A stretch of 31,814 nucleotides of DNA from a virus, in the IMG/VR virus record IMGVR_UViG_3300031772_002235, positions 1 through 31,814 of that record; one strand, 5' to 3'. Shown piece after piece: positions 1,006-31,814 of the stretch. The notes under the pieces were generated by a model, which worked only from the letters and a program-made list of their open reading frames with translations, searched no databases and was not told where the DNA came from. The translations under genes were made by a program, and so were the position numbers. Position 1 is the first letter of the stretch. Each line of letters begins with the position of its first letter.

Positions 1006-1086
1006 ATGATTGAAAAGATTACTAATGCGTCAATAGGGGAACAGGTTCTCTTGTTACTGGTAGTCTTTATTTCTCTTTTAATTTGA
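1006..1086 (+). CDS. Tiny membrane peptide, 3' end replaced by a mobile element
   Basis: An ATG at 1006 follows GGGGAGG (990-996) at good spacing, just after the thymidylate kinase stop. It encodes 26 residues: a polar start, then a hydrophobic run (VLLLLVVFISLLI) that could span the membrane. The last five codons and the stop lie inside the 161-bp transposable element that begins at 1071. Joining the flanks at the inferred TTAT insertion point restores a 27-residue peptide ending in VLMRY. The gene was therefore probably a short single-span peptide before insertion, and remains nearly unchanged in length. Function unknown. Confidence 0.45.
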   Translation: MIEKITNASIGEQVLLLLVVFISLLI

Positions 1087-1231
1087 ATACCCCTAGCTTT
1101 AGCTATGGGGATGAAAAATTTAAGAGTTGGGGCATCAACTCTTGGGCTAGGAGATGTAAGTCCATTGCAAACAATGGCTATCTCTGCTTGAATCCAGAAT
1201 CCCCTGCCTTTAGGCATGGGGAGTATGTCAA
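1071..1231 (+). mobile_element. 161-bp non-autonomous IS200/IS605-type element (copy 1)
   Basis: The element is bounded by a TTAT target (1067-1070) on the left and TCAA (1228-1231) on the right, the layout known for IS608-like transposons. The left hairpin 1090-1110 (CCCCTAGC..GCTATGGGG) and right hairpin 1201-1221 (CCCCTGCC..GGCATGGGG) each carry one unpaired T, as in single-strand transposon ends. Between them lies a copy of the last 23 codons of tnpB, still in frame to its stop. It differs from the copy at 30605 at only two bases. It has no transposase of its own; TnpA encoded at 13964-14365 is a plausible helper in trans, although the hairpin stems differ in sequence from that IS. Confidence 0.9.
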
Positions 1232-4537: not shown

Positions 4538-4814
4538 TGCGTTAGCTAAAAAGGATCGCATTAAGGCACTCAAGAAATATCAAGGGAATAAGGAAGGTTA
4601 CCTTGCAAAGGCAAGGATTTTCTATGCTGGACTCGAAGAACAGGGCATAAACACAAGCGCCGATAAAGTAGAATCAATTAATATGTTTGTGCCCTATGTG
4701 TTTTCCCCTGACGAGAGAAGAAAATCTACACAGAAAGGCAATAAATTGAAATTCCTACTAGGGATATTAGGATTTGCCTTTCTAATAATCGGCATATTAT
4801 TGAGCCGAAGGTAA
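4500..4814 (+). CDS. Tail-anchored hypothetical membrane protein, 104 aa
   Basis: Two ATGs occur at 4497 and 4500; GAGGAGG at 4487-4493 is best spaced for 4500. The protein has a basic, helical cytoplasmic part (about 80 residues) and one hydrophobic segment near the C-terminus (LKFLLGILGFAFLIIGILL) ending in SRR. That is the layout of a tail-anchored membrane protein with its bulk in the cytoplasm. It is followed after two bases by the MazG-like gene. No family recognised. Confidence 0.65.
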   Translation: MESKRTTLINQVNALAKKDRIKALKKYQGNKEGYLAKARIFYAGLEEQGINTSADKVESINMFVPYVFSPDERRKSTQKGNKLKFLLGILGFAFLIIGILLSRR

Positions 4815-4816
4815 TC

Positions 4817-5380
4817 ATGACAATAAAAGATTATATTGAAGTTGCACATCAGAACGCTGTTGATAAAGGATTTTGGGATAAGCCTAGAAATGATGGTGAA
4901 ATCATTGCTTTGTTACACTCAGAATTATCAGAATGTCTGGAAGCTATGCGAAGCAAAGAACCTGATGCGAAGGAAAGAATTGCAGAGGAACTTGCTGATT
5001 TCTGTATACGGTTATTCGATTACTGCGGTGGCAGGGATATTGACTTGGATAGTGAATTGCGACCTCACCTCGAAAATGATGAAGCACCTTTAACTTTTGC
5101 ACGTTTAAGTAAACATGCTGAATTAAAGATTGGCTTTGGAGAGGAGAAAGTTCCTTTTAATGATGGTACGATTATAGCCGATCTTCATTCTTTAGTAAGT
5201 CAATATTATGAAGATATAAATCCAATGTATAAGAAGAACAAAGGAGAGCCTAGAATTGATCTGATTTTAATGGGTGTAATTTTATATGCTTTTAGTAAAG
5301 AGATTGATCTAGAGAAAGCCATAGTTGAGAAAGTGAAACGTAATCAGAGTAGACCGAGATTGCACAATAAGAAGTTTTGA
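4817..5380 (+). CDS. MazG-like nucleotide pyrophosphohydrolase with degenerate tandem half
   Basis: A 187-residue all-helical protein. The first half carries the MazG metal-binding pattern: HSELSECLEA gives an E-x-x-E pair and EELADFCIRLFD supplies the E-x-x-D pair. Proteins of this type hydrolyse (d)NTPs to monophosphate and pyrophosphate, and in phages may clean the nucleotide pool or counter alarmone signals. The second half (IADLHSLVSQYYED... then RIDLILMGVILYAFSKEIDLEKAIVEKVKRNQSRP) looks like a second copy of the fold that has lost most of the acidic residues, apart from the closing helix with KVKRNQSRP typical of the family. The gene follows the previous one by two bases. Confidence 0.82.
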   Translation: MTIKDYIEVAHQNAVDKGFWDKPRNDGEIIALLHSELSECLEAMRSKEPDAKERIAEELADFCIRLFDYCGGRDIDLDSELRPHLENDEAPLTFARLSKHAELKIGFGEEKVPFNDGTIIADLHSLVSQYYEDINPMYKKNKGEPRIDLILMGVILYAFSKEIDLEKAIVEKVKRNQSRPRLHNKKF

Positions 5381-5391
5381 AAGGAGATATT

Positions 5392-5730
5392 ATGTTTACT
5401 ACAGAAGAAATGCAAGAAATTGTTAATAAAGCAAAAACAGAGGCGATTGCTACGATGTCCTCTCAGATTATTAATGCCATAGACTATTCAGTAAAACACG
5501 CTATCGGAACAGTGATTCAAGCAGAGATAGCCAAAACGGTAGAAAAGGATATTGAAGCAATTGCCAAAGAGGAATGGGATAAAGTCTGTCCGCAGGTACG
5601 GGGGATTATTGCTCAGGCTTTTCTTACGATTGCTGAGTCATTAGGGAAAGCAATGACAGCACAGGCTGTAAAGAATCTGGATAGTTATAATCGCAAGGAC
5701 ATTATCAAGAAGCTATTTGATATATATTAA
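5392..5730 (+). CDS. Hypothetical helical protein, 112 aa
   Basis: The start is taken at ATG 5392, since AAAGGAG at 5380-5386 is five bases upstream; an in-frame upstream ATG at 5377 overlaps the previous stop and has no good site. The product is predicted helical and amphipathic (MQEIVNKAKTEAIATMSSQI...), probably coiled-coil or bundle forming. It is the last gene before the replication module, followed by a 129-base non-coding leader. No family recognised. Confidence 0.7.
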   Translation: MFTTEEMQEIVNKAKTEAIATMSSQIINAIDYSVKHAIGTVIQAEIAKTVEKDIEAIAKEEWDKVCPQVRGIIAQAFLTIAESLGKAMTAQAVKNLDSYNRKDIIKKLFDIY

Positions 5731-5744
5731 GAAAGATTTGAACA

Positions 5745-5850
5745 CAGAATCGCCGGAGTAGCCAACTCGCCCCACTCCCTTGCAAGGGGGCAGGAGGTTG
5801 AGGCTGATGAGAACTTCGGCGACCCTCTTATCTCATCAAGAGGATGTGGT
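5745..5850 (+). other. Candidate structured 5' leader RNA before the replication initiator gene
   Basis: This intergenic stretch is unusually G+C-rich and full of inverted repeats. CGCCG (5751-5755) pairs with CGGCG (5817-5821). Inside, AGCCAAC (5760-5766) pairs with GTT..GGCT (5797-5805, two bases bulged) around CCCTTGCAAGGG (5777-5788). TGATGAGA (5805-5812) pairs with TCTCATCA (5831-5838), and CCTCTT (5824-5829) pairs with AAGAGG (5838-5843). The last two stems compete, since one puts the other's arm in its loop. The end lies next to the GGTGG ribosome site of the 5860 gene. It may be a leader that controls initiator synthesis; I do not recognise a known class. Confidence 0.45.
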
Positions 5851-5859
5851 GGCATAATT

Positions 5860-6906
5860 ATGTGTGCATCGCCGCAAAAAGAAAATGGATTTACCCCAAT
5901 AGCGCATGAAATATTAGAAGCACTCGCAAGAACAAAATTAACTACGCTAGAATCACAAGCTATATTTTTGATCTTGCGTAATACATACGGTTATAAGAGA
6001 AAAGTTTGGCAGATCAAGAAATGGAAAGTATTTGAAGATTTCGGTATTAATAAATGTTTGGTTAAAGAAACATTATTCAAATTAGCCGAAAGGCAAATAA
6101 TTGAATTGGATTGGAAGCAGAAAGAAATAGTATTCCAAAAAGATTATGAACAATGGCAAAAGATTGTACCTCGTCAAGCAATACGAGAACGAATATTAGA
6201 ACAAAAAGTTTGTCAGGTGACAAACAATAAAGTTTGTCAAGCGACAAACTTTCCTAATCACAAAGATAAAGAAGTTTGTCAGGTGACAAACAATAAAGTT
6301 TGTCAGGCGACAAACTCAAAGTTTGTCACTGGACAAACTCAAGTTTGTCAGGTGACAAACTCGACCCCCTCTAACCCCGCACTATCATTAGCGTTGCCAG
6401 ACCTTAGAGATAACTTAGATATAGATCTAAATATAGATCTAAGAGATATATCTATTTCTAAGGATCCAAGTACTGGTTATGATAAAAAAGTAAAAAAAAA
6501 TAATAATTATGAAAAAACTTGCAAGCTGATACAGACCAAATTCAATCAGTTCACAATACAGTCAAAACCTATAAAAGACGCCTTAATAAAAATATCGGAG
6601 TATCCAGAGGAACAGCAGGTTGCGGTATTAGAAAAAGGCAGTCTCGAATCTAATCAGCAGAAGATCGTATCATACATGCTATATGGATTAGAGCAAGGGT
6701 GGTATGCCAAAAAGGAACAGCTAAAAGGTCGCTCTAATCCACTTGAATGGGTTCCTCCTAAATGGGAAGATCCGCATTTAGAACCTGAGTACCAGAAAGA
6801 GTTAGGTAATTTATTTAAGTTAGCAGGAATGGGTGTAGAAGGTGCGCAAGAACAAATGAATCAACTTATAGAGGATTATAAAAATGGCAAGTGGAATAAG
6901 ATTTGA
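5860..6906 (+). CDS. Phage replication initiator (O-like) with origin iterons in the gene
   Basis: A 348-residue protein. Residues 9-110 resemble the Phage_rep_O N-terminal winged helix: the GFTPIAHEILEALARTKLTTLESQAIFLILRNTYGYKRK pattern (broken here by position: 10-48), then an LVKETLFKLAERQIIEL recognition helix. It should bind the origin and recruit helicase. Residues about 116-167 are repeats of VCQVTN and VCQATN, encoded by six palindromic DNA iterons at 6208-6360. A polar, low-complexity linker follows, and then a C-terminal region that probably contacts the helicase, ending in a 23-base overlap with dnaB. The start ATG 5860 has GGTGG at 5848-5852. The layout matches lambda O, where the origin lies inside the initiator gene. 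Confidence 0.82.
   Translation: MCASPQKENGFTPIAHEILEALARTKLTTLESQAIFLILRNTYGYKRKVWQIKKWKVFEDFGINKCLVKETLFKLAERQIIELDWKQKEIVFQKDYEQWQKIVPRQAIRERILEQKVCQVTNNKVCQATNFPNHKDKEVCQVTNNKVCQATNSKFVTGQTQVCQVTNSTPSNPALSLALPDLRDNLDIDLNIDLRDISISKDPSTGYDKKVKKNNNYEKTCKLIQTKFNQFTIQSKPIKDALIKISEYPEEQQVAVLEKGSLESNQQKIVSYMLYGLEQGWYAKKEQLKGRSNPLEWVPPKWEDPHLEPEYQKELGNLFKLAGMGVEGAQEQMNQLIEDYKNGKWNKI
6208..6360. repeat. Six palindromic iterons: probable replication origin
   Basis: Six 18-bp sites of the form GTTTGTC-N4-GACAAAC occur at 6208-6225, 6232-6249, 6274-6291, 6298-6315, 6321-6338 and 6343-6360. All twelve arms are perfect; only the central four bases vary (AGGT, AAGC, AGGT, AGGC, ACTG, AGGT). Start-to-start spacings are 24, 42, 24, 23 and 22. 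They lie inside the initiator gene, upstream of an A+T-rich tract. This is the arrangement of the lambda origin, so these are probably the initiator's own binding sites. Confidence 0.85.
6405..6530. other. A+T-rich tract beside iterons, possible unwinding element
   Basis: Starting about 45 bases after the last iteron, the sequence becomes strongly A+T-rich, with repeated ATAGATCTAA-like blocks (around 6420-6452) and a long A run followed by AATAATAATTATG near 6487-6511. In lambda-type origins the duplex opens at such a tract next to the iterons. It encodes a low-complexity Asp/Ile/Lys/Asn linker of the initiator, consistent with selection on DNA rather than protein. Confidence 0.55.
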
Positions 6907-8215
6907 TAGAGTGCCTCCGGTATGTATAGCCGAAGAAGTGGCTGTGTTGGGGGCTTGTATGCTGCCGGAAAGCTCCCTGATGACTGTAGCGGAAATCATA
7001 GAAATTATAAAGGGGAAGGATTTTTATAAAGAAGCGCATGAAAAGATATTTAATGCCATACTTAGTCTTTACCAGAAGAATATACCCCCTGATTGCTTGA
7101 TGATTGTTAGAGAATTAGATAATGCTGGGGAGTTAGAAAAAGTCGGTGACGTAGGCTATATTTCCAGTCTCATTGATAGCACCCTATATCTTCCCAATGT
7201 AACGCATTATGCTGAGATAGTAAGAGATACTGCACGTAAGAGAAATCTAATAAGAGCATCCGTAGAAATATATAATAACAGTTATGATGATACACTTGAA
7301 ACAGAAACATTGTTAGATATGGCGGAGAGTTCGATATTAAACATAAAGGACGTGTCGCCACAACAGTTTGTAACTGCGAAAAGTATGGTAAATGGAGTGT
7401 TAGATAAAATTAATCTTGCAATTAGCAGTAAATCTTCGGTGGCTGGCATTCCAACAGGGTTTAATAAATTAGATTATCTTACAACAGGGATGTATCCGGG
7501 AGATTACATTATTGTTGCAGCAAGAACAAGTATGGGGAAGTCTGTATTTGTGAAAGACATTGCAACGTTTTTGTCATTAGTTGAAAAAATACCAGTTGGA
7601 TTTTTTACCCTTGAAACTTCTAAAGAGCAATTGATGTTACGAATAATATCTTCGTTAAGTGGGTTAGATAGTTTTTTATTAAAAACAGGGCATCTTAACG
7701 AGACCGACTTGACAAAGGTAACAAATGCAGTCAATGAAATCTATAAAGGCAGTTTAATAATTGATGATTCTTCGGGACTGACTGATATGGAACTGCGGTC
7801 AAGGGTGCGCAGAATGAAGCACCAATACGGTGTGGAATTAATTATTATAGATCAAATTGGGCAATTAAAATCGCATAAGAAAGTCGAGAATAGGCAGCAG
7901 GAAGTGTCTGCAATTTCTCTTTCATTAAAGCAGATTGCAAGGGATTTTAAGATACCTGTTATAGCAGTTGCGCAGATTAATAGGGGACCAGAAGAAAGGT
8001 CAGATAAGCGCCCTTTACTATCAGACTTGAGGGAAAGTGGGAGTTTGGAGATGGATCCAGATACCGTTTGTTTTCTATACAGAGAGTCATATTATGATCG
8101 GGATAACCAGGATAATACAACAGAGATAATAGTAGCAAAGCAAAGGAATGGGCCTATTGGGACAATAAAGCTGGATTTTGACCTGAGATGCACAAAGTTT
8201 ATCAATAAGGAGTAG
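6884..8215 (+). CDS. dnaB: Replicative DNA helicase DnaB
   Basis: A 443-residue hexameric helicase that should unwind the phage replication fork. Residues 15-115 are the N-terminal helical domain (EEVAVLGACML... through DFYKEAHEKIFNAI). The RecA-like C-terminal domain has Walker A AARTSMGKS at 212-220, a Walker B-like LIIIDQIGQL near 323-332, a VAQINR motif (H3/sensor) and LSDLRESGSLEMDPDTV before the arginine-finger region. This is standard DnaB order and near-standard length. The ATG at 6884 is inside the end of the initiator gene (23-base overlap, GAGG upstream), so helicase and initiator are coupled. No separate loader gene is evident next to it. Confidence 0.95.
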   Translation: MASGIRFDRVPPVCIAEEVAVLGACMLPESSLMTVAEIIEIIKGKDFYKEAHEKIFNAILSLYQKNIPPDCLMIVRELDNAGELEKVGDVGYISSLIDSTLYLPNVTHYAEIVRDTARKRNLIRASVEIYNNSYDDTLETETLLDMAESSILNIKDVSPQQFVTAKSMVNGVLDKINLAISSKSSVAGIPTGFNKLDYLTTGMYPGDYIIVAARTSMGKSVFVKDIATFLSLVEKIPVGFFTLETSKEQLMLRIISSLSGLDSFLLKTGHLNETDLTKVTNAVNEIYKGSLIIDDSSGLTDMELRSRVRRMKHQYGVELIIIDQIGQLKSHKKVENRQQEVSAISLSLKQIARDFKIPVIAVAQINRGPEERSDKRPLLSDLRESGSLEMDPDTVCFLYRESYYDRDNQDNTTEIIVAKQRNGPIGTIKLDFDLRCTKFINKE

Positions 8216-8217
8216 CC

Positions 8218-8601
8218 ATGTTTCCTGATTTAATAAGGACAAACTATTATGTAATATCAACACCAGAACTAATATTGGGAATAAAGGATGGTGAGCTAGG
8301 GGAATGTCTGCTTGCATGGTCGAAAAGATATAATGCTGAATTATATCTTAATGAGATTCTTCCGTTGACCGATATAAAGACTCAATTTGCAGTAATCAAG
8401 GTAAGATATGGGGATATGGTTCTTACAGCAATGGAATCAAAAGTAGGGATTATTATTGATGAGTTGCCTGATGATAGGTGGTTAGACTACGTTGATGTTA
8501 AAAAATGGTTATCGGATTATCCGCTCGATATGAACAGTATTCAATGGTTGGTCAATAACCCCCGCATAAATGCGGAGGCTTGTAAAAGCTTGATTGACTA
8601 G
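8218..8601 (+). CDS. Hypothetical protein, 127 aa
   Basis: The ATG at 8218 starts two bases after the DnaB stop, with AAGGAG at about 8206-8211. The product is a soluble, acidic alpha/beta-looking protein with no motif that I recognise. It might be a helicase partner because of its position, but this is inference. The IscB element begins in the intergenic stretch after it, and separates it from the sliding clamp gene. Confidence 0.7.
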   Translation: MFPDLIRTNYYVISTPELILGIKDGELGECLLAWSKRYNAELYLNEILPLTDIKTQFAVIKVRYGDMVLTAMESKVGIIIDELPDDRWLDYVDVKKWLSDYPLDMNSIQWLVNNPRINAEACKSLID

Positions 8602-8659
8602 AGGGTGTTTAATTACACAGCAGTTGGTTAAGAGAAATACATACACACCTACGAATATT

Positions 8660-8798
8660 ACGCAAGTTTGTAGCTCTGTGGTCTGCCATTAAAAGTTCTG
8701 AGGGTAGGAACGGTGTGGCAGACTTAAAAACCTTTTCCAACAATCTCGATGCGTCTCTAACAGGAGCAATCCTGTATTACTCTGAAAGGAGTTTTTTT
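8660..8798 (+). ncRNA. HEARO / IscB omega RNA (candidate)
   Basis: IscB nucleases use an omega RNA encoded just upstream of their gene (the HEARO RNA class). Here GTCTGCCA (8681-8688) and TGGCAGAC (8716-8723) form a perfect 8-bp closing stem, and ACAGGA-GCAA-TCCTGT (8760-8775) forms a hairpin with a GNRA tetraloop. That is followed by CTGAAAGGAG, which also serves as the ribosome site of iscB. The hairpin-then-GAAAGGAG ending is a feature I associate with this class. The guide would be the roughly 16 bases before 8681. The 5' limit is approximate, and 8602-8660 shows nothing I can identify. Confidence 0.75.
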
Positions 8799-10028
8799 GT
8801 GGTATATATAATTTCAAAAACAGGTAAACCATTAATGCCGACCAAAAGGCTAGGTAGAGTCAGACACTTGTTAAAAGACGGTCTGGCTAAGGTTGTGCAG
8901 AGAACACCATTCACGATCCAACTACTTTACGAGAGTGAGGAATATACTCAACCAATAACGCTTGGAATAGATAGTGGCTACCAGAATATAGGAGTATCAG
9001 TTGTAACAGAAAAAGAAGAGGTTTTTAGTGCAGAAGTGAAACTAAGAACCGATATAATTAAGCTCAATTCTGAGAGAAGGGCATATCGAAGAACGAGACG
9101 TAACCGCAAGACTTGGCATCGTAAACTGAGATTCCTTAATCGTAAAAAGGACAAGGGCTGGTTAGCTCCTTCTATACAACACAAGATTGATTCTCATATC
9201 AAGTTGGTGGATATGGTAAAACGGATTCTCCCGATAACAAAGATTAATGTTGAGGTCGCTTCTTTTGACATACAAAAGATAAAGAATCCTGATATAGAGG
9301 GCGTGAATTATCAGAATGGTGCACAGTTGGGATTTTGGAATGTCAGAGAATATGTCCTTCACCGAGACGGACATATTTGTCGGCACTGCAAGGGTAAATC
9401 TGGAGATAAGATACTTAATGTTCATCATCTAAAATCCAGACAGACTGGTGGCGATAGACCAGAAAATTTGATTACGTTATGCTCTAACTGTCATCAACTT
9501 GTATCAAAGGGAAAGTTAAAACTAAACATAAAGGTTTCTAGCGGGTTGAAGGCAGAGACTTTTATGACGATGATTAGATGGCGTATTGTTAATCTATTGA
9601 GACAAACAAATACTAATGTCTCACATACTTATGGCTATTTGACTAAATGTAAACGTATAGCGTTTGGTATATCAAAAAGTCACGTAAACGATGCCTTTGT
9701 AATAGCCTGCGGTACGATTCAACAACGTATGGATGGGTATGCCATGCAACAGGTGCGAAAGTGCAACCGCAAGCTCTATAAAGGTATACGAAGTCATATT
9801 AAGAATACAGCACCTCGATTGGTGTTTGGTTTTCAACGTTTTGATAAGGTATTGTGGAAAGGTATTGAGTGCTTTGTATTCGGTAGAAGGACTCGTGGGT
9901 ATTTTGATATACGGCGTCTTGACGGTACAAAGTTGAATACTGATGTTAAATATACAGAATTAACATTGTTAGAAACATTTAGAACATTTTTAACAGAAAG
10001 GAAAGTCGGCAATTCCTCACCCGCATGA
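8799..10028 (+). CDS. iscB: IscB RNA-guided DNA nuclease
   Basis: A 409-residue IscB, the family from which Cas9 derives. From the GTG at 8799 (GAAAGGAG at 8784-8791) the protein begins with the PLMP domain (SKTGKPLMPTKRLGRVRHLL, residues 6-25). Then come RuvC-I LGIDSGYQ with D58, an arginine-rich bridge helix RRAYRRTRRNRK (93-104), RuvC-II NVEVASFD with E152, and an HNH domain (CRHC at 194-197, VHH with H209/H210, GGDRPENL, LCSNCH). RuvC-III SHVNDA contains D298, and the C-terminal region is basic. All catalytic residues are present, so it should cut both strands. The frame is open upstream of 8799, but that part lies in the RNA. It sits between dnaB and dnaN. Confidence 0.95.
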   Translation: MVYIISKTGKPLMPTKRLGRVRHLLKDGLAKVVQRTPFTIQLLYESEEYTQPITLGIDSGYQNIGVSVVTEKEEVFSAEVKLRTDIIKLNSERRAYRRTRRNRKTWHRKLRFLNRKKDKGWLAPSIQHKIDSHIKLVDMVKRILPITKINVEVASFDIQKIKNPDIEGVNYQNGAQLGFWNVREYVLHRDGHICRHCKGKSGDKILNVHHLKSRQTGGDRPENLITLCSNCHQLVSKGKLKLNIKVSSGLKAETFMTMIRWRIVNLLRQTNTNVSHTYGYLTKCKRIAFGISKSHVNDAFVIACGTIQQRMDGYAMQQVRKCNRKLYKGIRSHIKNTAPRLVFGFQRFDKVLWKGIECFVFGRRTRGYFDIRRLDGTKLNTDVKYTELTLLETFRTFLTERKVGNSSPA

Positions 10029-10055
10029 ATGCAGGTGTCCCCTTGCCGAAATATT
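10005..10055 (+). mobile_element. Right end of the IscB transposable element
   Basis: The sequence GGCAATTCCTC, an imperfect hairpin CACCCGCATGAATGCAGGTG, then CCCCTTGCCG matches the typical right end of IscB and IS605-type elements, in which GGCAATTCCTC and CTTGCCG flank a palindrome. The outer CGGCAA and TTGCCG are also complementary. The iscB stop codon (10026-10028) lies within this structure. The exact cut site is not determined, and no transposase gene accompanies this element, so it depends on a TnpA supplied in trans. Confidence 0.75.
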
Positions 10056-10074
10056 ATGGAAAAGGAGTTTAAAA

Positions 10075-11232
10075 ATGAAGTTAGTATTTGAAAGTTCGGT
10101 ATTGGCTAAGATATTGGCAGACGTGGCAAGTGTGGCGGCGCAAAGAAATACATTGCCAATCCTGAGTAATGTATTGTTGAAGGCACAAGGAATTATTCCT
10201 ATACAAGGCACAACGCGCACAACGAGATCAAAAATAACGATTGCTGCAACAGACTTAGAAATTGGAATGGTAATGGAGGTCGAAGGAGAAGTAGAGGAAG
10301 ATGGTGAAATAACTATTCCTGCTAAGAAGCTGCTAGATATTGTCAGAGAAGCTTCGCCTGATGACAAGGTAACTATCGAGACGTTATCGAGTGACAGGAT
10401 AGCAATTGAGTATGGAACAGCGAAGTTCAAAATAGCTGGCTTGGCTAGTGACGAGTTTCCTCCAGTGCCAAGTATTAGTGATGGCGGAGTGAAGATCAAG
10501 GGTGAGAAACTTTGCACACTACTGAGGAAAGTTGTTTCTGGTGCGTCTACTGAAGAAATAAGGTATTTTCTGAATGGTGTATATGTGATAATTGAAAGAT
10601 TCAAAGATATAAGTACAGACGGATCAATAACTGCGGTAGGAACTGATGGCAAACGACTGATGGTAGCCACACAGATTACTGGAGGGGCTATTACAAAGAA
10701 AATTACTGGCATTATTCCGGTAAAGGCAGTAAAAAAGATAGTAAGCATGTTTGACCATGCTGATATGATTGACGTGAACCTGCTAGAATCGGAACTGGTT
10801 ATTGGTGGTGAAGGGATAGTGTTTATCACAAGATTAATCGAAGGTGAGTATCCTGATTATCAGGCAGTAATCAATCCAGTCAAGAACAATGATTTAGTTC
10901 TTGATCTTGATAAGGAATCATTTATATCAGTGATAAAGCGTGTAAGCCTATTAGCCAATCCTAAAACGCCCTCAGTGCGATTGGAAGCGGTGGAGGGTGT
11001 TCTTACTATCACCTCTAGTACACCAGATCTTGGTGAAGCAGTGGAGTGCCTTCCTGTTGATTATAGTGATGCGTCTATAATCATTTCTCTGAATGCGAGG
11101 TATCTTTTGGATATTTTGCAATCGGTTACGGGAAAAGTTACGTTGAAGTTTAGGGATAGTTTGAGTCCTGTTTTAGTTTTGGATAATGACGATATTGGGT
11201 TTATTGGCGTGATTATGCCCATGAGATTGTAA
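10075..11232 (+). CDS. dnaN: DNA polymerase III beta subunit (sliding clamp)
   Basis: A 385-residue clamp, normal for bacterial DnaN. It starts MKLVFESSVLAKILADVASVAAQRNTLPILSNVLL-type (the family's N-terminal pattern, residues 1-34). The three repeated clamp domains follow: DLEIGM near 62, KLLDIVREA, a GTDGKRL motif at about 200, EGEYPDYQ near 258, and a C-terminal VLVLDNDD..IGVIMPMRL. It forms the ring that tethers polymerase to DNA. The ATG has AAAAGGAG immediately upstream, seven bases away. The gene follows the IscB right end with almost no gap. A phage-encoded full clamp suggests that the phage also encodes or recruits a Pol III-type polymerase. Confidence 0.95.
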   Translation: MKLVFESSVLAKILADVASVAAQRNTLPILSNVLLKAQGIIPIQGTTRTTRSKITIAATDLEIGMVMEVEGEVEEDGEITIPAKKLLDIVREASPDDKVTIETLSSDRIAIEYGTAKFKIAGLASDEFPPVPSISDGGVKIKGEKLCTLLRKVVSGASTEEIRYFLNGVYVIIERFKDISTDGSITAVGTDGKRLMVATQITGGAITKKITGIIPVKAVKKIVSMFDHADMIDVNLLESELVIGGEGIVFITRLIEGEYPDYQAVINPVKNNDLVLDLDKESFISVIKRVSLLANPKTPSVRLEAVEGVLTITSSTPDLGEAVECLPVDYSDASIIISLNARYLLDILQSVTGKVTLKFRDSLSPVLVLDNDDIGFIGVIMPMRL

Positions 11233-11238
11233 TGTCTT

Positions 11239-11317
11239 GCGTGGGGGAGCGAAGTGCTGAAAATCCAGCATCAGACTCTCAAGTGTGGTTGGTCTGATAT
11301 TTGCGATGATCCCACGC
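11239..11317 (+). other. Candidate three-stem structured RNA
   Basis: GCGTGGG (11239-11245) and CCCACGC (11311-11317) form a perfect 7-bp closing stem. Two hairpins lie inside: TGCTG-N6-CAGCA (11255-11270) and, sharing one base, ATCAGAC-N15-GTCTGAT (11270-11298). The element lies seven bases after the dnaN stop. The 7-bp outer stem recalls a tRNA acceptor, but no T arm, anticodon loop or CCA tail fits. The run ending in TTTTGATTTTTT after it is only weakly terminator-like. I do not recognise the RNA class. Confidence 0.5.
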
Positions 11318-11365
11318 CATTCTTTTGATTTTTTAAATGATTACGAAGATAAGGAGGATTAGAAA

Positions 11366-11518
11366 ATGGCTAAAAAGTTTTCGGATGCGTTTCTGTACTG
11401 TGCCAATTATGAAATCTTAAAAATACATGCCAAGAACGATTGTCGGAATTGCAAGAAATCAACAGACAAAAAAGAGTTCAAACCGGGTAAATGGTGTCTG
11501 AATTATAAAGGAAAATGA
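11366..11518 (+). CDS. Small cysteine-containing protein, 50 aa
   Basis: The ATG at 11366 is preceded by AAGGAGG (11351-11357) at eight bases. The 50-residue basic product has four cysteines (C12, C26, C29, C44), with a CRNC pair in the middle, which suggests a single small zinc site. The stop is one base before the ATG of the HNH gene, so they are probably translated together. Similar short zinc proteins are common in phage DNA metabolism modules; I do not recognise a named family. Confidence 0.65.
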   Translation: MAKKFSDAFLYCANYEILKIHAKNDCRNCKKSTDKKEFKPGKWCLNYKGK

Positions 11519-11519
11519 A

Positions 11520-12365
11520 ATGTCAGAAATTGCATTACTTGAAAATAATGATTATTATCCAGAGCTTCTAAAAGAATGTATGCAAGCTTACGAACCGATA
11601 GAGAATGCGAAGTGGCTGCTTATTCTTGGATATTTCAAAGTAGGAAACACTATATTGGAGTATATGCGTCAAGGTAAGATTAAGAGCGAGTATGGTAATT
11701 CGACAATGGTACGGTTACAGGAAGATATGAGAAAAGCAGGACACCCTATGGACATTTACCGTGCAGTGCAACATGCTAAGTTATTTTTGACAGAGGAGAA
11801 GCTGATACTTTACTACAAGGAGAATCCGGGTTGTACATGGACATTTATTCGAGAGAACGTTCTCCCGAAGGCTACTGATCATCCTGAACGCTATGGTGGT
11901 GTGGAAAATGTAGCTAACGAGGTTATGAATAAAGTAGAGAAGTTGGGTTTGGAACTTGAGGAATTGCGGGTGATGATTCATAACGAGGACGTGCCTCTGG
12001 AGACAAGAGAGGAAGCAGTTGGTGTTATGCAGAAAGCTTTTGAGGTTATGGGGGAACTGTCGGAAACTAGATATTTGCCGAAGACTAAAATTGAACGCAG
12101 TCTTGGTTATCTTGATTATCTGCATGGTTTCCCCTGTATGATATGCAACAAAACTCCAGTTGACGCTCATCATGTTGAGAAAGCAGGGGTGGGGTTAAAA
12201 GGCAGCGATTATATATCGGTTCCATTATGTAGAGAGCATCACGATCAGATCGAGGAACTTGGGTGCGATAGTTTTGAGAGGCTTCACGTGGTAGATTTTT
12301 ATGAATATATTTGTAAGTATCTAACTACATACATTCAATTATTGGAACAGGGGCGAAATGGCTGA
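11520..12365 (+). CDS. HNH (DUF968-like) nuclease-type protein with helical N-terminus
   Basis: A 281-residue protein. The first 190 residues are helical (KWLLILGYFKVGNTILEYM; YGNSTMVRLQEDM; HPMDIYRAVQHAKLFL) and vaguely resemble a DUF1016-type or ParB-helix segment. Residues about 200-270 form a DUF968/NinX-like HNH domain: CMICNKTPVDAHHVEKAG, then SVPLCREHHDQIEELG, giving two metal-binding Cys pairs or Cys/His pairs and the catalytic His. Such proteins are thought to cut branched or single-stranded recombination intermediates. The ATG at 11520 follows AAAGGAAA. The end overlaps the next gene by 8 bases. Confidence 0.7.
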   Translation: MSEIALLENNDYYPELLKECMQAYEPIENAKWLLILGYFKVGNTILEYMRQGKIKSEYGNSTMVRLQEDMRKAGHPMDIYRAVQHAKLFLTEEKLILYYKENPGCTWTFIRENVLPKATDHPERYGGVENVANEVMNKVEKLGLELEELRVMIHNEDVPLETREEAVGVMQKAFEVMGELSETRYLPKTKIERSLGYLDYLHGFPCMICNKTPVDAHHVEKAGVGLKGSDYISVPLCREHHDQIEELGCDSFERLHVVDFYEYICKYLTTYIQLLEQGRNG

Positions 12366-12912
12366 AACGACTGCCCGTGTATTCCCACGGAAAACAAATT
12401 TAACGCCAACTGATGAAAATGCCTATGTTGGTCCGCCTGATTTGCTGACACCGCATTATGACGAAGTGCGTATAAGTGTTACTTTTACTTATGATAAATC
12501 TTATGCAGAACAGTTGGCGGATCAATGGAATCTTTATGCAGACAAGATATTGCTTGGCGGGATTGCTTATGGTGACGCTGGAACAGTATTTACTCCGAGA
12601 GAATACGTTAAGTTTGGTGGGGTTATGACCAGCCGGGGATGCCCTAATGCCTGTTTTTTCTGTGATGTACCTGATAGGGAAGGTGATATTCGAGAGTTGC
12701 CCATAACAATGGGGTGGAATTTATTGGATTCCAACATTCTTGCATGTTCTGAAGAACATATCAGGGCAGTATTTGAAATGTTCAAGGTATTTGACACACT
12801 CCCACGACTAAAGCTCGTGGGATTCTGGATTCAAGCAGAGATAGCCAACATTTCTATTGGACTTACATCTCCTAGCCCAAGAGTTGATGCCCCAACTCTT
12901 AATATATTATAG
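12358..12912 (+). pseudogene. Radical SAM gene interrupted by the IS200/IS605 element
   Basis: From ATG 12358 the frame encodes about 144 native residues and then runs into the IS at 12791, ending at 12912. The native part has the radical SAM cluster motif C-x3-C-x2-C in SRGCPNACFFCDVP (residues about 93-106), which binds the [4Fe-4S] cluster that cleaves S-adenosylmethionine. GVMTSRGCPNACFFCDVP resembles phage radical SAM proteins that are normally much longer. Removing the IS joins the frame to CKFGGRA and a stop at 14505-14507, a 151-residue protein whose TGA overlaps the next GTG start. Even the uninterrupted gene would lack the usual C-terminal half, so it may already have been a remnant. 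Confidence 0.7.
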
Positions 12913-12960
12913 CTGGCGTTGCGGTCTCTGTCGTGCAATGTTGCACATTCAGGACAACGC
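12771..12960 (-). ncRNA. TnpB omega (right-end) RNA and guide, approximate limits
   Basis: TnpB works with an RNA made from the tnpB 3' end and the transposon right end, whose last bases come from the flanking DNA and act as guide. In RNA orientation this region has stems AAGAGTTG/CAACTCTT (12900-12893 with 12886-12879), CCAATA/TGTTGG (12860-12855 with 12850-12845) and the right-end hairpin (12821-12801), then TCAA at 12791. The guide would be the 20 or so bases of flank (12790 down to about 12771), i.e. the pre-insertion radical SAM sequence. The 5' limit is not visible. Confidence 0.7.
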
Positions 12961-13967
12961 CATTCTCGTTCTTTTAGTTCTAGGTCTTTATAGATATAAC
13001 CACAGACAGAACAAGTCTTAGACGAAGGTTCAAAACGACCAATGCAGAATATAGTTTTACCTTTAACTGACGATAGATACTTGAGTTTCAGCATGAACGA
13101 ATAGAAACCAAGATCGCATATCTTTTTACCCCAAAGCATTTGCATTGCCTTGATATTGAGGTTCTCAAAGAACATGAAATCATATTTGTCAGTTAATTCG
13201 TTAGCTAGTTTCCAGTGGAAGTCAGACCGTTGGTTAGCGATTCGTTTGTGTAGTCGTTCCAGACTCTTACGTGCTTTGCGTCTGTTATTAGAATGTCGCT
13301 GTTTCTTTGATAGTTTGCGGTTAGCCTTGCGAACTGCGTTACTGTTCTGGTGGAAAAACAAAGGAGATTCTATATCATTATCATTGGACGCTGTTAGAAA
13401 TGTTTTGAGACCAAAATCAAACCCGACAATTTCACCTGTGCGTGGTGCGGTTCTAGTCTCAACAAAATCCGTCACAATGTGGATATAAATATCCCCAAGT
13501 TTATCACGTTTGACTGTGATAGTTTTTACGTTACCTTGTATGTCTTGAGATTTGAAATACTTGAATATTTTGTTACCAATCTTGATTTTGTTATCTTCAA
13601 GCAGTTTATATCCTGCTTGTTTCAGTGTGAATGATTTATAATTTCTGCGTTTCTTAAAGTTAGGAGTTCCTGACTTGATTCCGTGCTTCTGATTCCTAAA
13701 GAATAGCTTGTAGGCTTTGTCAATTCTGTCTGCTATATCCTGTATTGCTTGAGAACCAAGTTGATTCCAGTGAGAATATTTATCTAATTTCTTGAGTTTT
13801 GTCAGGTGCTTTTGTAGTGAATAGGCGTTCAGAGATTTCTTATACATCCGATAATATCGTTTATGCAAAGCAATACAATGATTGTAGATTTCACCAGCAA
13901 CCGATATTTGGTTATGGAGATACCTGTTCTTTTTGGAATTGTAGATTTTGAAACAAAAGGTTTTCAC
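12831..13967 (-). CDS. tnpB: TnpB RNA-guided nuclease
   Basis: A 378-residue TnpB, a normal length for a compact intact member. It has a helical and WED-like N-terminal half, RuvC-I VGFDFGLK (D184), RuvC-II FFENLNIKAM (E268), a four-cysteine zinc finger (C319, C322, C338, C341) and RuvC-III HDRDRNASYNI (345-355). The C-terminal tail GASTLGLGDVSP is encoded by the omega RNA region. All catalytic residues are present. The GTG start at 13967 overlaps the TGA of tnpA (GTGA), which indicates coupled translation. The protein should cut the empty donor site next to a TTAC-like motif using the right-end guide and so favour element retention. Confidence 0.95.
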   Translation of the reverse strand: MKTFCFKIYNSKKNRYLHNQISVAGEIYNHCIALHKRYYRMYKKSLNAYSLQKHLTKLKKLDKYSHWNQLGSQAIQDIADRIDKAYKLFFRNQKHGIKSGTPNFKKRRNYKSFTLKQAGYKLLEDNKIKIGNKIFKYFKSQDIQGNVKTITVKRDKLGDIYIHIVTDFVETRTAPRTGEIVGFDFGLKTFLTASNDNDIESPLFFHQNSNAVRKANRKLSKKQRHSNNRRKARKSLERLHKRIANQRSDFHWKLANELTDKYDFMFFENLNIKAMQMLWGKKICDLGFYSFMLKLKYLSSVKGKTIFCIGRFEPSSKTCSVCGYIYKDLELKEREWRCPECATLHDRDRNASYNILRVGASTLGLGDVSPIEMLAISA

Positions 13968-14365
13968 TGGTTCTTTTGATCCTCAATGTATTTTTTAACA
14001 GTACTTTCGGAAATATGACCAACGCTTTCAATATAATAGCTTCGAGTCCAAAGAGTTGGTACTCTTGTTTTTAGCTGTGAAAATTCTTGTCTAAGAATCC
14101 TTGATGTGTATCCTTTGAGTTGTTGAACAATGAAATGTGGACTATCAACAGGAGATGATTTGATGAACAAATGCACATGGTCAGGCATTATTTCGCAAGT
14201 TTCGATTGTCAAACCAATTTCATCGGATTTTTGGTATAACAATTCTCTAAGGCGTGTTTCAACTGAATTAGTCAACAGTTTTCGCCGATACTTAGGACAC
14301 CAGATAATGTGGTATCCTAGATTATAAACAGCTTTATTACTTGTAGTCCAACGTTTATTTTCCAT
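13964..14365 (-). CDS. tnpA: IS200/IS605 TnpA transposase (Y1 HUH)
   Basis: A 133-residue single-tyrosine HUH transposase that excises and inserts single-stranded DNA at hairpin ends. It has YHIIWCPKYRRKLL near the start, the HUH pair H63 and H65 in MPDHVHLFIK, TLWTRSYYIESVGHISE, and the catalytic tyrosine in KKYIEDQ (Y126). The length is normal. No ribosome site precedes the ATG at 14365; instead a perfect promoter ends eight bases upstream, so the message should be almost leaderless. It may also mobilise the two 161-bp elements and the IscB element. Confidence 0.95.
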   Translation of the reverse strand: MENKRWTTSNKAVYNLGYHIIWCPKYRRKLLTNSVETRLRELLYQKSDEIGLTIETCEIMPDHVHLFIKSSPVDSPHFIVQQLKGYTSRILRQEFSQLKTRVPTLWTRSYYIESVGHISESTVKKYIEDQKNQ

Positions 14366-14372
14366 GCTATTA

Positions 14373-14401
14373 ATTATAGCATAATGTTATTTAATTGTCA
14401 A
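14373..14401 (-). promoter_or_regulatory. Consensus sigma-70 promoter of tnpA
   Basis: On the - strand, TTGACA (14401-14396) and TATAAT (14378-14373) are separated by exactly 17 bases, a perfect consensus promoter. Transcription would begin about 14366, one base or so before the tnpA ATG at 14365. An inverted repeat GCTAT-TAATT-ATAGC overlaps the -10 box and could allow regulation. Confidence 0.85.
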
Positions 14402-14503
14402 GTGTATAATATCTGCATTTAGGAAAAATGCAGGAATCATTCATCCAACGACTGAAGTTCGTTGGCTTTCTGATTCAGGAGATCGTAAATTTGGGGGTAG
14501 AGC

Positions 14504-14848
14504 GTGATTGAAACGGAACAAACGACTAAATCAAGAAGACATATTGTGGTTGGAGAAGGCATGGCTGTGATACAGGGAGATCGCAAGCCAAAGGATAATT
14601 ACAAAGACAAGTATCCTGATTGGTTTAACGCCGGGCTTGTTGCTGGTAGTTATGGTGGTTTGAGAGAGCGGTTCAGGGATATATACATACAATGCAAGGG
14701 CATGATGATTGAAGCTAGAGACGCTTTGTATCAAGAAAAAGCATACAAAGAAGATGTAAAAGGATTGAATGAGGTGGAAAGGTGTGCTTGGCTTTTGGGG
14801 TTTCTTAATAAGGCAATTGACGCTGAGTTGAATCGTCAAATTTGTTGA
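14504..14848 (+). CDS. Hypothetical protein, 114 aa
   Basis: The GTG at 14504 is preceded by GGGGG (14492-14496). Its first bases overlap the stop that the radical SAM gene would have without the IS, so the two were adjacent before insertion. The product is soluble and helical in its second half (GLRERFRDIYIQCKGMMIEARDALY). The KPKDNYKDKYPDWFNAG stretch recalls small phage proteins of unknown function. No motif gives a function. Confidence 0.65.
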   Translation: MIETEQTTKSRRHIVVGEGMAVIQGDRKPKDNYKDKYPDWFNAGLVAGSYGGLRERFRDIYIQCKGMMIEARDALYQEKAYKEDVKGLNEVERCAWLLGFLNKAIDAELNRQIC

Positions 14849-14859
14849 GGGGGTAGAAA

Positions 14860-15030
14860 ATGAGAATCACTAGGGTAGACATATCGGAAAGGATTCATAT
14901 TTTGGACGAGTACAATTGGGATTTGGAGAATTTGATTGACAAAATAATCGAATTGCAGACTGAGAATGATGTGTTACAAGACAAAATTTGGGGACTAGAA
15001 AACAGGATTGCCGAATTTGAAAAGGAATAA
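14860..15030 (+). CDS. Small coiled-coil protein, 56 aa
   Basis: The ATG at 14860 has GAGGGGG six bases upstream. The product has a heptad-like pattern (LDEYNWDLENLIDKIIELQTEND broken at 15-37, then VLQDKIWGLENRIAEFEKE), so it should form a short coiled coil, probably a dimer. The stop is directly before the ATG of the methyltransferase at 15032, whose AAAGGA lies inside this gene. It may be a methyltransferase partner or a small regulator. No family recognised. Confidence 0.65.
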   Translation: MRITRVDISERIHILDEYNWDLENLIDKIIELQTENDVLQDKIWGLENRIAEFEKE

Positions 15031-15031
15031 T

Positions 15032-17341
15032 ATGTTTGATTGGGTAGATACAATGGTTGCGGGTGATACAAGACAGGTACTCAGAGGATTGCCTGATGGA
15101 TGTATATCAGCTTGCGTTACCTCGCCCCCTTATTTTAATAAACGTCTTTTTTCAGTCCAACCTCTGCTATGGGGGGGCGATCCTGAATGTGACCATGACT
15201 TTTCATTAGCTACAATTGGTGGGGATTTCAGAGTTAATAAAGTAGGTGCTACTACAACGGTAGGTGCGAATAAGGCTATGGCAGATTGGGCAGAGAAGAA
15301 GCATGGGAATGAATACCGAAACCATTTAGGTCCGCTTGCTAGTCCTTATGCCGAAGGTGTTGCGCAGGGACATTATATACATCAAGGCTCAACTCAGTCT
15401 GATATTGTTTCTGGTGGTCAGATTACGGACGGATTTGTAGAGGAAGCGTATTGTATTAAGTGTGGATGCTGGCGGGGATCGCTAGGGAATGAACCCAACA
15501 TCAGCCAATTTATTTCAAACCTTATGGAGATTTTTTGCGAGGTATATCGGGTGCTTCGTGCTGACGGATCATGTTGGGTGAATCTTGGAGATACTTTTTG
15601 GGGTGGCGGGCATGGTGGGAATACTTTATATTCTGCTGCGGATGGTGACGTTAAGTCATTGAAGCAAGGTAATTCTAGTGTCTATGTACCTACTGTCAAG
15701 TGGGGGAATGAGTATCCTAATAAGTGCTTGTGTATGATACCTGAGAGATTTGCGATAGCAATGCAGGAACATGGTTGGATAGTACGTCAAGTGATTGCAT
15801 GGACGAAAACTAACAGTATGCCGGAAGCGGTCACGGATCGATTTTCAAGTAGCTGGGAGTATATCTATCATTTCGTGAAGCAAGGTAAATATTTCTTTGA
15901 TCAGCAATTTGAGCCACAAGGAAGTGATACACATTCAAAAGGCTTGAAATTAGAGAATCCTGTAAAAGACAGAGGTAGTTATAAAGATTGGGCTAAATAC
16001 ACTCCTGTGACTTATCTTGCCAATGGTCGTAATCAAAGAAATATTTTTAACGTCAATACCAGTCCGTGTGATTGGGAATTTTGTAATGATTGCAAGAGGC
16101 TATATGTCAGGGCAGAACGTAGAGAAATCAAGATTGAGAAATGGACTAATGATAAGGGTATTGAGAGAAGAAAGCGAATCTGTGTTTGTGGGTCATCAAC
16201 TGGGTGGATAGACCATTTCGCTTCATATTCAACTAGACTAATCGAACCATTGATCAAGGCTAGTGTTCCAAAAGAGATTTGCTGCAAATGCGGAAAACCT
16301 AGAGAGGCTATATATGAAAAGACTGGTGAGGTAATTCAACAACGTTGGTCAAAAACGTCAAAATTGGCGGAGTTACAAGGTTTGTCTGAAAAAAGTGGAA
16401 TATATCGTCAAGGTGTATTAGAAAAGAAATTATCTGGGTACAGTGATTGTGGATGTAAGGATTATTATTGTAACAACTGCAAAACGTTCTTGACAAAAAA
16501 CGTAATAAATAGTATAATTACCATGAAAGGAGATGGTGATTATGCCATTCAAGGACATAGAGAAGCGCAAAGTATATCTGAGGAACTGGGCAAGAAATCA
16601 TTATCAAAAAATGAAGGAATCGGGTGCGGAGATGTCCGACCTCAAAGGTTACAAGGAAAAGGATTGCTTAATTTGTGGGATGAAATTTTATGCAAGAAAG
16701 ACGCAACAGACTTGTTCGAGGAGTTGCGGAGCAAAATGGCAGGTATTGAAAGGAAATCACAACAGTTGGAATTTGAAAGGGGACAAAAATCCACATTGGA
16801 AGGGGGGGAGGAGACCGCACAATTCGGGTTATGTTTACATTTGGATTCCGGATCATCCATTTGCAACCAAACAGGGATATGTGATGGAGCACAGGTTGGT
16901 AATGGAAAAGTATCTAGGGAGATATTTGAACAAAAACGAGAATGTTCACCACAAGAATGGGATAAAGGACGACAACAGGATAGAGAACCTCGAAGTCCTG
17001 ACACACAACAGCCACAAGGGGCAAGTTGTATGTCCCTTTTGTCTGCAAACTTTTACGGTGAAATAGCGTGTCCTTTCTGCCTATCATCCAATATTGATAT
17101 ATTGCCTTCACCTCTTGAACCAGGTATAGGATTAGATCCGTTTATGGGATCAGGCACTACTGCGATAGAGTTGATAAGACAAGGGAAACATTACTTTGGG
17201 ATTGATCTTAATGCAGATTATGTGGGTGTGGCAAATGCCCGGTGTGAAAGAGAGAAAGAGGACCAGGCATTGCTGTTGCCGAAGAAGCAGAAGATGATTA
17301 AGACAGAGGTTATTCGGGATAGTCAATTGGAGTTTTTTTGA
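15032..17341 (+). CDS. Beta-type DNA methyltransferase, with an HNH gene nested inside
   Basis: A 769-residue reading frame for an N4-cytosine or N6-adenine methyltransferase. The catalytic motif TSPPY is at residues 30-34 and the S-adenosylmethionine motif DPFMGSGTT at 702-710, followed by [15 protein letters not shown]-before-I is the beta-class order. Zinc-ribbon cysteine pairs lie between them (CIKCGC, CNDC..CVCG, CCKCG, CNNC, CPFC). Residues 503-678 are read from the same DNA as an HNH gene in the next frame and look like low-complexity linker. Without them, CNNCKTF and ACPFC could form one ribbon. The ATG at 15032 has AAAGGA upstream; an earlier in-frame codon at 15008 lacks a site. Methylation may protect phage DNA from host restriction. 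Confidence 0.85.
16490..16518 (+). promoter_or_regulatory. Consensus promoter of the nested HNH gene
   Basis: TTGACA (16490-16495) and TATAAT (16513-16518) are separated by exactly 17 bases, a perfect sigma-70 consensus, inside the methyltransferase gene. AAAGGAG (16526-16532) and the ATG at 16542 follow. The HNH gene therefore carries its own expression signals. Confidence 0.85.
16542..17066 (+). CDS. HNH homing endonuclease nested out of frame in the methyltransferase gene
   Basis: A 174-residue free-standing HNH endonuclease. Residues 42-62 hold a four-cysteine zinc motif (CLIC..CSRSC). The catalytic domain is at 113-158: [17 protein letters not shown], then [17 protein letters not shown] with H136/H137 and N149, and a final H155. 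It ends in [11 protein letters not shown], which mirrors CPFCLSSN of the methyltransferase just downstream. ATG 16542 is chosen because AAAGGAG is nine bases away; an ATG at 16533 abuts that site. The enzyme should cut methyltransferase alleles that lack the insertion and so copy itself between phages. Confidence 0.92.
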
Positions 17342-30580: not shown

Positions 30581-30604
30581 AGAAGGAGGGAGATAAAAAG
30601 TTAT

Positions 30605-30765
30605 CTCTCTTTTAATTTGAATACCCCTAGCTTCAGCTATGGGGATGAAAAATTTAAGAGTTGGGGCATCAACTCTTGGGCTAGGAGATGTAAGTCCATT
30701 GCAAACAATGGCTATCTCTGCTTGAATCCAGAATCCCCTGCCTTTAGGCATGGGGAGTATGTCAA
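30605..30765 (+). mobile_element. 161-bp non-autonomous IS200/IS605-type element (copy 2)
   Basis: Identical in length to the copy at 1071 and different at two bases only. The target is TTAT (30601-30604), left hairpin 30624-30644, right hairpin 30735-30755, and right end TCAA (30762-30765). The left hairpin starts 19 bases in, as in the full IS. The tnpB-derived core with its CCATTG/CAATGG hairpin (30696-30711) is present. It lies in the loop of a larger inverted repeat after the capsid gene. The short distance in sequence implies recent spread in this phage. Confidence 0.92.
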
Positions 30766-30811
30766 TCTCTTGTTTTCCTAATCATTAAATCTTTCCGTAT
30801 GGAGATGAGAA

Positions 30812-31029: not shown

Positions 31030-31814
31030 ATGTCTATAACAGTAAACTTGCCGGGATCGAGAAATAAGCATGTAAAAAAGGCTATAGAAGAAGCGTTGAG
31101 TTCTCTTAGTTTTGTCGGCATTTCGGGGGTGGGCATAGCTGATGATGACAAGATTACTCTTGGTGCATCTAGTGACGTAACAATTGAATGGGATACTGCG
31201 ATTGCGACTGACCAGTTGCAGATAGGCGCATTGGCAGATGATACTATAATAACATTTGGCATAGCAGCAGCAACACAGAAAAGTTTTGATATAACGTGGT
31301 TCGGTCATCAAGCAAGCGGGGCGTCTTATCTTTATTTTGACGCCAGTGAGGATTTGATCTATACGACAGGTGTTGATCTGCAGTTTAAGGATAATGATGT
31401 TCTTGTATTTGGAACAGGATCGGATAAAACAGGTGACGTTGCTATTACCTGGGATGGGACCAATCTGATAGTATCGGCAAAGACAGATGACAGCGTGATA
31501 GAGATTGGCGATTCTGCATCTACGCAGTTATCATTTGACATCAAATGGTATGGACATCAGGCGTCAGGTGCGTCTTACGTTTATTTTGATGCCAGTGGTG
31601 ATTTGATCTATACTACGGGTGTTGATCTGCAATTCAAGGATAATGACATATTGGTCATCGGTACGGGCGGTGGCGGTGGCGGTGACGTGCAGTTCGTATG
31701 GGATACTGCAAATCTGATAATGAAAGCCGTAGCGGATGACACGCTTTGGGAGATTGGAGACAGTGCAACACCACAGTTATCGTTCGACGTGAAATGGTTT
31801 GGCGGAACGGCGGG
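31030..31814 (+). CDS. Repeat-rich structural protein, N-terminal part (runs off the window)
   Basis: The ATG at 31030 has GGGGGTGAG upstream, and the frame is open to the window end (261 codons). After about 40 residues, the protein consists of beta-rich repeats with period 83 residues: FDITWFGHQASGASYLYFDAS, then DLIYTTGVDLQFKDNDVLVFGTG, repeating as FDIKWYGHQASG... and then FDVKWFGG at the edge. Such FD-W-G...LYFDAS...VDLQFKDND repeats look like phage head or tail decoration or fibre repeats. The gene probably encodes a large extracellular structural protein, possibly a capsid fibre, given its location right after the capsid gene. Confidence 0.7.
   Translation, partial: MSITVNLPGSRNKHVKKAIEEALSSLSFVGISGVGIADDDKITLGASSDVTIEWDTAIATDQLQIGALADDTIITFGIAAATQKSFDITWFGHQASGASYLYFDASEDLIYTTGVDLQFKDNDVLVFGTGSDKTGDVAITWDGTNLIVSAKTDDSVIEIGDSASTQLSFDIKWYGHQASGASYVYFDASGDLIYTTGVDLQFKDNDILVIGTGGGGGGDVQFVWDTANLIMKAVADDTLWEIGDSATPQLSFDVKWFGGTA
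31303..31814 (+). repeat. 249-bp tandem coding repeat
   Basis: The same codon blocks (for example the GGTCATCAAGC/GGACATCAGGC block, and GGTGTTGATCTGCA) recur at 31303, 31552 and 31801, an exact 249-base period. DNA identity is high between units one and two, with mostly third-position changes. Confidence 0.85.

Follow-up and report, generated by a model that had tools for sequence, protein, structure and literature searches.

Two 161-bp mini-elements in a phage genome fragment retain a complete TnpB omega RNA scaffold

Results

Two short elements and a full IS200/IS605 element share one phage fragment

The window analysed here, the whole 31,814-nucleotide (31.8-kb) stretch of a virus record, contains two 161-bp elements and, on the other strand, one full IS200/IS605 element. 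The two short copies are 99% identical, with internal differences at positions 1071 (T/C) and 1100 (T/C, in the loop of the left hairpin), and lie at different, intergenic sites with unrelated flanks, both on the + strand, which is the orientation of the phage genes. Neither holds a protein gene or, in particular, a transposase gene; the + strand reads LRVGASTLGLGDVSPLQTMAISA followed by a stop, 23 codons in the tnpB frame that have no start codon of their own. At either end lies a subterminal imperfect palindrome with a bulged T (1090-1110 and 1201-1221 in copy 1). A tetranucleotide (TTAT) directly 5' of the insertion, the absence of a target duplication, and a right end in TCAA, the pattern that characterizes a PATE, are found at both copies. 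The features of the short elements and of the resident insertion sequence (IS) are as follows.

1067-1070, + strand: TTAT target left of copy 1, predicted left cleavage site and TAM (read directly; common to both copies)
1071-1231, + strand: short element copy 1, 161 bp, no protein gene
1086-1089, + strand: left DNA guide AATA, 5' of the left hairpin, predicting TTAT (rule of PMC5934647 and relatives)
1090-1110, + strand: left-end hairpin, CCCCTAGC-TTTA-GCTATGGGG, bulged T (read from the sequence)
1122-1231, + strand: omega RNA scaffold of copy 1, with stem 1, a long-range stem, stem 2 with apical hairpin 1162-1177, the right-end hairpin, and a pseudoknot to the 3' end (leave-out covariance model, 114.3 bits; covariation; pseudoknot)
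1197-1200, + strand: right DNA guide GAAT, pairing with TCAA
1201-1221, + strand: right-end hairpin, CCCCTGCC-TTTA-GGCATGGGG, bulged T, UUUA tetraloop
1228-1231, + strand: TCAA right cleavage site, end of the element
1232-1247, + strand: predicted 16-nt guide of copy 1, AGTCCTAATGCGTTAC (guide length from ISDra2, PMC8612924)
12791-14484, - strand: full IS200/IS605 element; target TTAC at 14488-14485, left guide AAAG, right end TCAA
12791-12900, - strand: omega RNA scaffold of the resident IS (leave-out covariance model, 93.9 bits)
12831-13967, - strand: TnpB, 378 aa, PF01385 and PF07282
13964-14365, - strand: TnpA, Y1 transposase, 133 aa, PF01797, perfect-stem-hairpin clade
30601-30604, + strand: TTAT target left of copy 2
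30605-30765, + strand: short element copy 2, 161 bp; left DNA guide AATA at 30620-30623
30656-30765, + strand: omega RNA scaffold of copy 2 (leave-out covariance model, 114.3 bits)
30766-30781, + strand: predicted 16-nt guide of copy 2, TCTCTTGTTTTCCTAA

In the resident TnpB, residues D184, E268, and D348, which we take to be the RuvC catalytic residues, fall in columns that are invariant across 13 TnpBs. In the region 12358-14490, the resident IS sits at the 3' end of an open reading frame (ORF) with a CPNACFFCD radical-SAM-like motif, and the flank suggests that it altered the C-terminus of this ORF. Elsewhere in the window, positions 8551-10028 hold a HEARO RNA (RF02033, 128.7 bits) and an IscB gene (RRXRR, HNH), by their sequence a second RNA-guided nuclease element in the phage fragment; clustered short direct repeats with TTTGTCAGGYGACAAA-like palindromes at 6198-6360 are possibly a repeat-based binding or replication site, and two 191-nt direct repeats in the last ORF (31228-31667; 70% identical) are probably protein repeats.

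The omega RNA scaffold is complete and ends at the element boundary

A previous sequence-only reading had proposed an omega RNA within the short elements, and this was borne out by a covariance model free of window sequences: built from 14 relatives, the leave-out model matched the window exactly three times, at both short elements with a complete scaffold (114.3 bits each) and at the resident IS. The RNA core of the short elements folds at -42.9 kcal/mol (z -3.4). Covariation, which that reading had proposed as a check, was found in a core alignment of relatives from phages, plasmids, and viral contigs, where 26 of the 31 pairs show both-side changes and 88.6% of cells pair (24 distinct sequences, first model), counts that are biased upward because the 24-sequence alignment was fitted to the structure; none of 500 shuffles reached the observed values, and sliding the partners destroyed the signal. 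The pseudoknot is an independent test of omega RNA identity beside these counts. The ISDra2 TnpB structure shows an omega RNA pseudoknot between the loop of stem 1 and a strand near the 3' end (PMC10097598); both short elements have GGCAU in the stem 1 loop with AUGUC near the 3' end, and the five pairs form in all 48 family sequences with a readable loop (some of them near-duplicates), with compensatory variants such as GGCGU with ACGUC. Every scaffold feature tested was present in the short elements. Taken together with their ends, these results indicate that the short elements are almost certainly IS608-type mini-elements (PATEs) with an intact omega RNA scaffold.

The scaffold model ends at 1231 and 30765, which is the boundary between transposon and flank. 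Because no element sequence follows the scaffold, any transcript that crosses the boundary would include the flank as its guide, as in ISDra2, where a 16-nt guide is taken from the flank (PMC8612924); in keeping with the sequence-only reading, each short element would have a guide of its own. The first 12 nt of the copy 1 guide have no other match within the window, no promoter-like site for the short elements was found on the + strand, and Rfam gave no match over them at the gathering threshold.

As a separate observation, positions 5514-5534, inside an ORF (5377-5730) for which no phage relative was found, match the reverse complement of TGGCTATCTCTGCTTGAATC, an omega RNA stretch, exactly over 20-21 nt. 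Given this location, the mRNA of the ORF would be antisense to all three omega RNAs; the match could be chance, a relic, or an antagonist.

Differences from the resident core are confined almost entirely to two hairpins

Over the 110-nt core, the short and resident elements differ at 18 positions: 6 in the apical hairpin, 11 in the right-end hairpin, and a single one in the 3' strand, which turns a U-A pair of the pseudoknot into U.G. Seventeen of the 18 differences are thus located within two hairpins spanning 33 of the 110 nt (hypergeometric P ~5e-10), while the 79-nt 5' part of the core has only six, all in one hairpin (P 3e-6). Pairing is kept in the hairpins where the two RNAs differ. The apical hairpin at 1162-1177 had been described as having six changed pairs; the hairpin itself is real, but three pairs (C-G, C-G, and A-U) are the same as in the full IS and three are changed, two on both sides (A-U to U-A and A-U to G-C) and one on a single side (U.G to U-A). 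The peptides of the hairpin region, SPLQTMAISA and SPIEMLAISA, are both plausible TnpB tails, so the divergence may predate the loss of coding and perhaps arose while the parent was still coding.

Guides and hairpins separate the short elements from the resident IS

Target choice in IS608 depends on base pairing with a DNA guide tetranucleotide beside the left hairpin, TTAC with AAAG (PMC5934647). The resident IS has this same AAAG/TTAC combination, whereas both short elements have AATA/TTAT, which obeys the IS608 positional rule (bases 1 and 2 of the guide with bases 1 and 2 of the target, base 4 with base 4); the motif "TTAY", formerly used for both, masks this difference. Among relatives, the left guide and target are AAAG/TTAC in most and AAAC/TTAG in two (L007 and L031), and one decayed copy (L095) does not fit the rule. 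On the right side, relatives have GAAT/TCAA or GAAA/TCAT, and the short elements GAAT/TCAA.

The right-end hairpins also differ in design, with a bulged T in the short elements vs a perfect stem in the resident IS, and the left ends show no sequence match. The resident TnpA is 66-69% identical to the TnpA of L087 and to those of the elements read as perfect-stem (L036, L077, L078, and L112), vs about 40-47% for bulged-T elements (L009, L018, L019, L029, L030, L075, L108, L110, and L124). Hairpin type thus coincides with TnpA clade in all cases, five (the resident included) vs nine in two clades (Fisher P 5e-4, an optimistic value, as the set includes near-duplicates). The rule holds only within the two clades compared, since L084, with a more distant (34%) and oppositely oriented TnpA, also has a perfect stem. 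Since both ends of the short elements bear bulged-T hairpins, their likely mobilizer is an IS608-clade TnpA outside this fragment, and the resident IS is probably not the mobilizing partner. The earlier description of the short elements as carrying both IS ends, 23 tnpB codons, and no gene therefore stands for the copies, the codons, and the gene loss, while the ends are those of this IS type and not of the resident IS. That the short elements were derived from the IS at 12791-14484, and are moved and protected by it, is in our judgment very unlikely: the two share a contig and a closely similar 5' core, but their left ends, their hairpins, which track TnpA clade, and their targets all set them apart.

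The target difference extends to the nuclease. The empty site inferred from the insertion carries TTAT, and the resident TnpB, for which TTAC is the expected TAM, may serve such sites poorly. Weak TAMs are tolerated by TnpB in some systems (PMC11043419), and acceptance of the TTAT sites by the resident TnpB is uncertain. Its proposed role as natural partner of the short elements is weakened by this mismatch and by hairpins that belong to another TnpA clade.

Exact-pattern scans of viral contigs and 84,980 genomes found no autonomous partner or true relative of the short element. In the genomes, the pattern of left hairpin foot plus stem 1 gave five matches, all rejected as chance, in or near unrelated genes (Pseudomonas, Erysipelothrix); in viral contigs, the same junction or the short-element apical hairpin gave no match or one chance match. 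Within the phylum of an Erysipelothrix MAG, no TnpB relative was found at E 1e-60 in 392 genomes, and 295 genomes yielded only short right-end matches at the DNA level. Proteins flanking each copy led to no empty sites in related phages, and the sole near-identical contig (L005) matches positions 4694-16209 at 100%, not reaching the short elements.

Omega RNAs without TnpB recur in phages and plasmids

Whole records were searched with the first covariance model for omega RNAs without a TnpB. One viral record (L069/L162; IMGVR_UViG_3300042731_008397) carries a unit of left end, omega RNA, and right end at TTAC, on the same plan as the short elements, and another (L068; IMGVR_UViG_3300028534_000209) a solo TnpB-less omega RNA. 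A Geoalkalibacter subterraneus plasmid (NZ_CP010312) holds two short units (L056 and L060) with identical 5' and 3' boundaries, which consist of tnpB tail, omega RNA, and right end only; a candidate left end was rejected, since comparison with the full copy identified the stretch as tnpB tail. Three TnpB-less omega RNAs are located on a single phage contig (L154, L155, and L156; IMGVR_UViG_3300026522_000001), of which L154 has a consensus promoter (TTGACA-17-TATAAT) just upstream and L155 lies directly 5' of an apparent gene start. Finally, a solo omega RNA (L017; 110.7 bits) occupies positions 2234-2340 of Campylobacter fetus pCfviP3, a 4-kb plasmid with neither tnpA nor tnpB on the same record. 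Complete TnpB-less omega RNAs thus recur in several lineages, in phage contigs and plasmids, mostly beside TnpB-bearing copies.

The good promoter of the solo omega RNA L154, in another phage, would suit a scenario in which the short elements are fixed guide cassettes of the phage that serve a TnpB-like regulator or a defense nuclease, and phage-encoded, RNA-guided TldR regulators exist (PMC13418256). We nevertheless regard such domestication as highly improbable, because a near-identical pair with intact transposon ends looks mobile rather than fixed and the search of the window showed no inactive TnpB.

As a search for the omega RNA itself is biased, we also sampled blindly to the RNA, looking for the right-end sequence GGAGTAYGTCAA in 50 TnpB-carrying phage contigs. 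This gave 40 sites (none in the reversed control), of which, as read, 35 are beside TnpB and 5 are not. Only two of these five TnpB-less right ends keep the omega RNA; the other three (L157, L158, and L159, from contigs G429, twice, and G437) are single-hairpin units of about 45-54 nt that end in GTCAA, two of them clearly preceded by TTAC, and by sequence are very small IS200/IS605 derivatives. Retention of the omega RNA is therefore recurrent but not the rule, and mini-element status does not need it.

These counts bear on the simplest account of the short elements, a passive deletion derivative that lost tnpA and most of tnpB and whose right end moved with the adjoining tnpB tail, so that only the ends recognized by TnpA matter and the omega RNA is a functionless passenger. 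The layout has a published precedent, a non-autonomous PATE-like element of IS605 in Halanaerobium hydrogeniformans (PMC7290912), which likewise has a left-end hairpin, no tnpA, and a complete right end, with the last 58 nt of tnpB as its remnant; it is about 271 nt long, occurs as a single copy in a bacterial chromosome, and was described without discussion of an RNA function, whereas the short elements are 161 bp long, occur twice in a phage, and had their omega RNA tested. This precedent and the three of five TnpB-less ends without omega RNA, which make mobility independent of the RNA, favor passive descent. So does the fact that the copies are too recent to reveal selection; being nearly identical, the pair cannot demonstrate selection on the RNA after miniaturization. 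The opposite is suggested by the economy of the tnpB part, whose start lies within about four bases of stem 1, as it does in L162, and which so includes a complete omega RNA and little extra, by a scaffold intact in every part tested, and by the recurrence in several lineages. We rate passive descent as a serious contender, somewhat short of an even chance. The sequence-only view of omega RNA retention as an adaptation is weakened by the survey and by the likeness of the copies.

A different arrangement was seen in another viral record (L164; IMGVR_UViG_3300008952_000013, 31550-34100, minus strand), where a TnpB gene with D, E, D motifs is followed by 41 copies of ATGYCAA, the motif of the omega RNA 3' end, in 2550 nt (none on the other strand; shuffles expect 0.84, with a maximum of 4). 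The copies are mostly separated by unique spacers of 9-50 nt, with four omega RNA scaffolds among them, and the stretch occurs identically in a further record (L161; IMGVR_UViG_3300007508_000686). It resembles a TnpB guide array, possibly one that combines mini-repeats with a split scaffold, and may be more novel than the short elements themselves. Against the remainder of the contig, the unique spacers show only chance-level matching, no similar phage record was found, and an open-access subset of the literature yielded nothing specific on guide-only TnpB elements or TnpB guide arrays.

Discussion

The short elements combine traits of several known systems. They resemble IS608 of Helicobacter pylori in the TCAA right end, the GAAT right guide, and the choice of target via a left DNA guide (PMC5934647), and its H. 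pylori phage relative (L029) in the bulged-T hairpins; IS608, however, carries tnpA and tnpB and uses TTAC with AAAG, whereas the short elements have neither gene and use TTAT with AATA. With the reRNA, or omega RNA, of ISDra2 they share a scaffold made of the tnpB 3' end and the right end, several stems, a pseudoknot to the 3' end, the UUUA tetraloop, and a flank-derived guide (PMC8612924, PMC10097598). In contrast to ISDra2, which uses TTGAT, the short-element omega RNA is unlinked to a tnpB of its own and is found with TTAT. Standalone omega RNAs for IscB/HEARO were reportedly described by Altae-Tran in 2021; these, too, are guide scaffolds without an adjacent nuclease gene, but they belong to IscB rather than TnpB and lie outside a transposon-end mini-element of the present type.

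The explanation that we favor, tentatively and at just under an even chance, is that the short elements are PATEs with a complete omega RNA, mobilized in trans by TnpA, and that their RNA is used by a TnpB in trans. That the omega RNA acts with such a TnpB is a proposition we hold with the same reserve, passive descent being almost as likely. Mobilization of the elements via single-stranded DNA would be the work of a Y1 TnpA from the bulged-hairpin (IS608-like) clade, supplied by the host or by another part of the phage. Read-through from upstream phage genes in the same direction would then make the omega RNA, with the right flank as guide, and a compatible TnpB would cut those phage genome copies in which the site (TTAT plus guide) is still empty. 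Repair from an occupied copy would keep the insertion and spread it among co-infecting or replicating genomes; gene-drive-like activity of TnpB on multicopy DNA has been described (PMC11870625).

It is tempting to speculate further, although we consider this possible rather than probable, that the short elements are guide-only transposons that, in multicopy phage genomes, parasitize TnpA to move and TnpB to be retained and to home, with each insertion making its own guide. Equally speculatively, 161 bp would then suffice for a DNA guide determining where the element inserts (TTAT) and for an RNA scaffold with the flank as its cutting guide.

The new points are an RNA structure that was put to the test, a guide/target match by which the short elements can be told from the resident IS, and recurrence among phages. 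The covariance model is itself a tool for finding TnpB-less guide RNAs, several of which it has located in phages and plasmids. Should the RNA serve in trans, mobility and nuclease protection would be within reach of an IS200/IS605 element that has no gene of its own. This would explain the persistence and spread of short derivatives, and it would extend the role of TnpB beyond the copy that encodes it.
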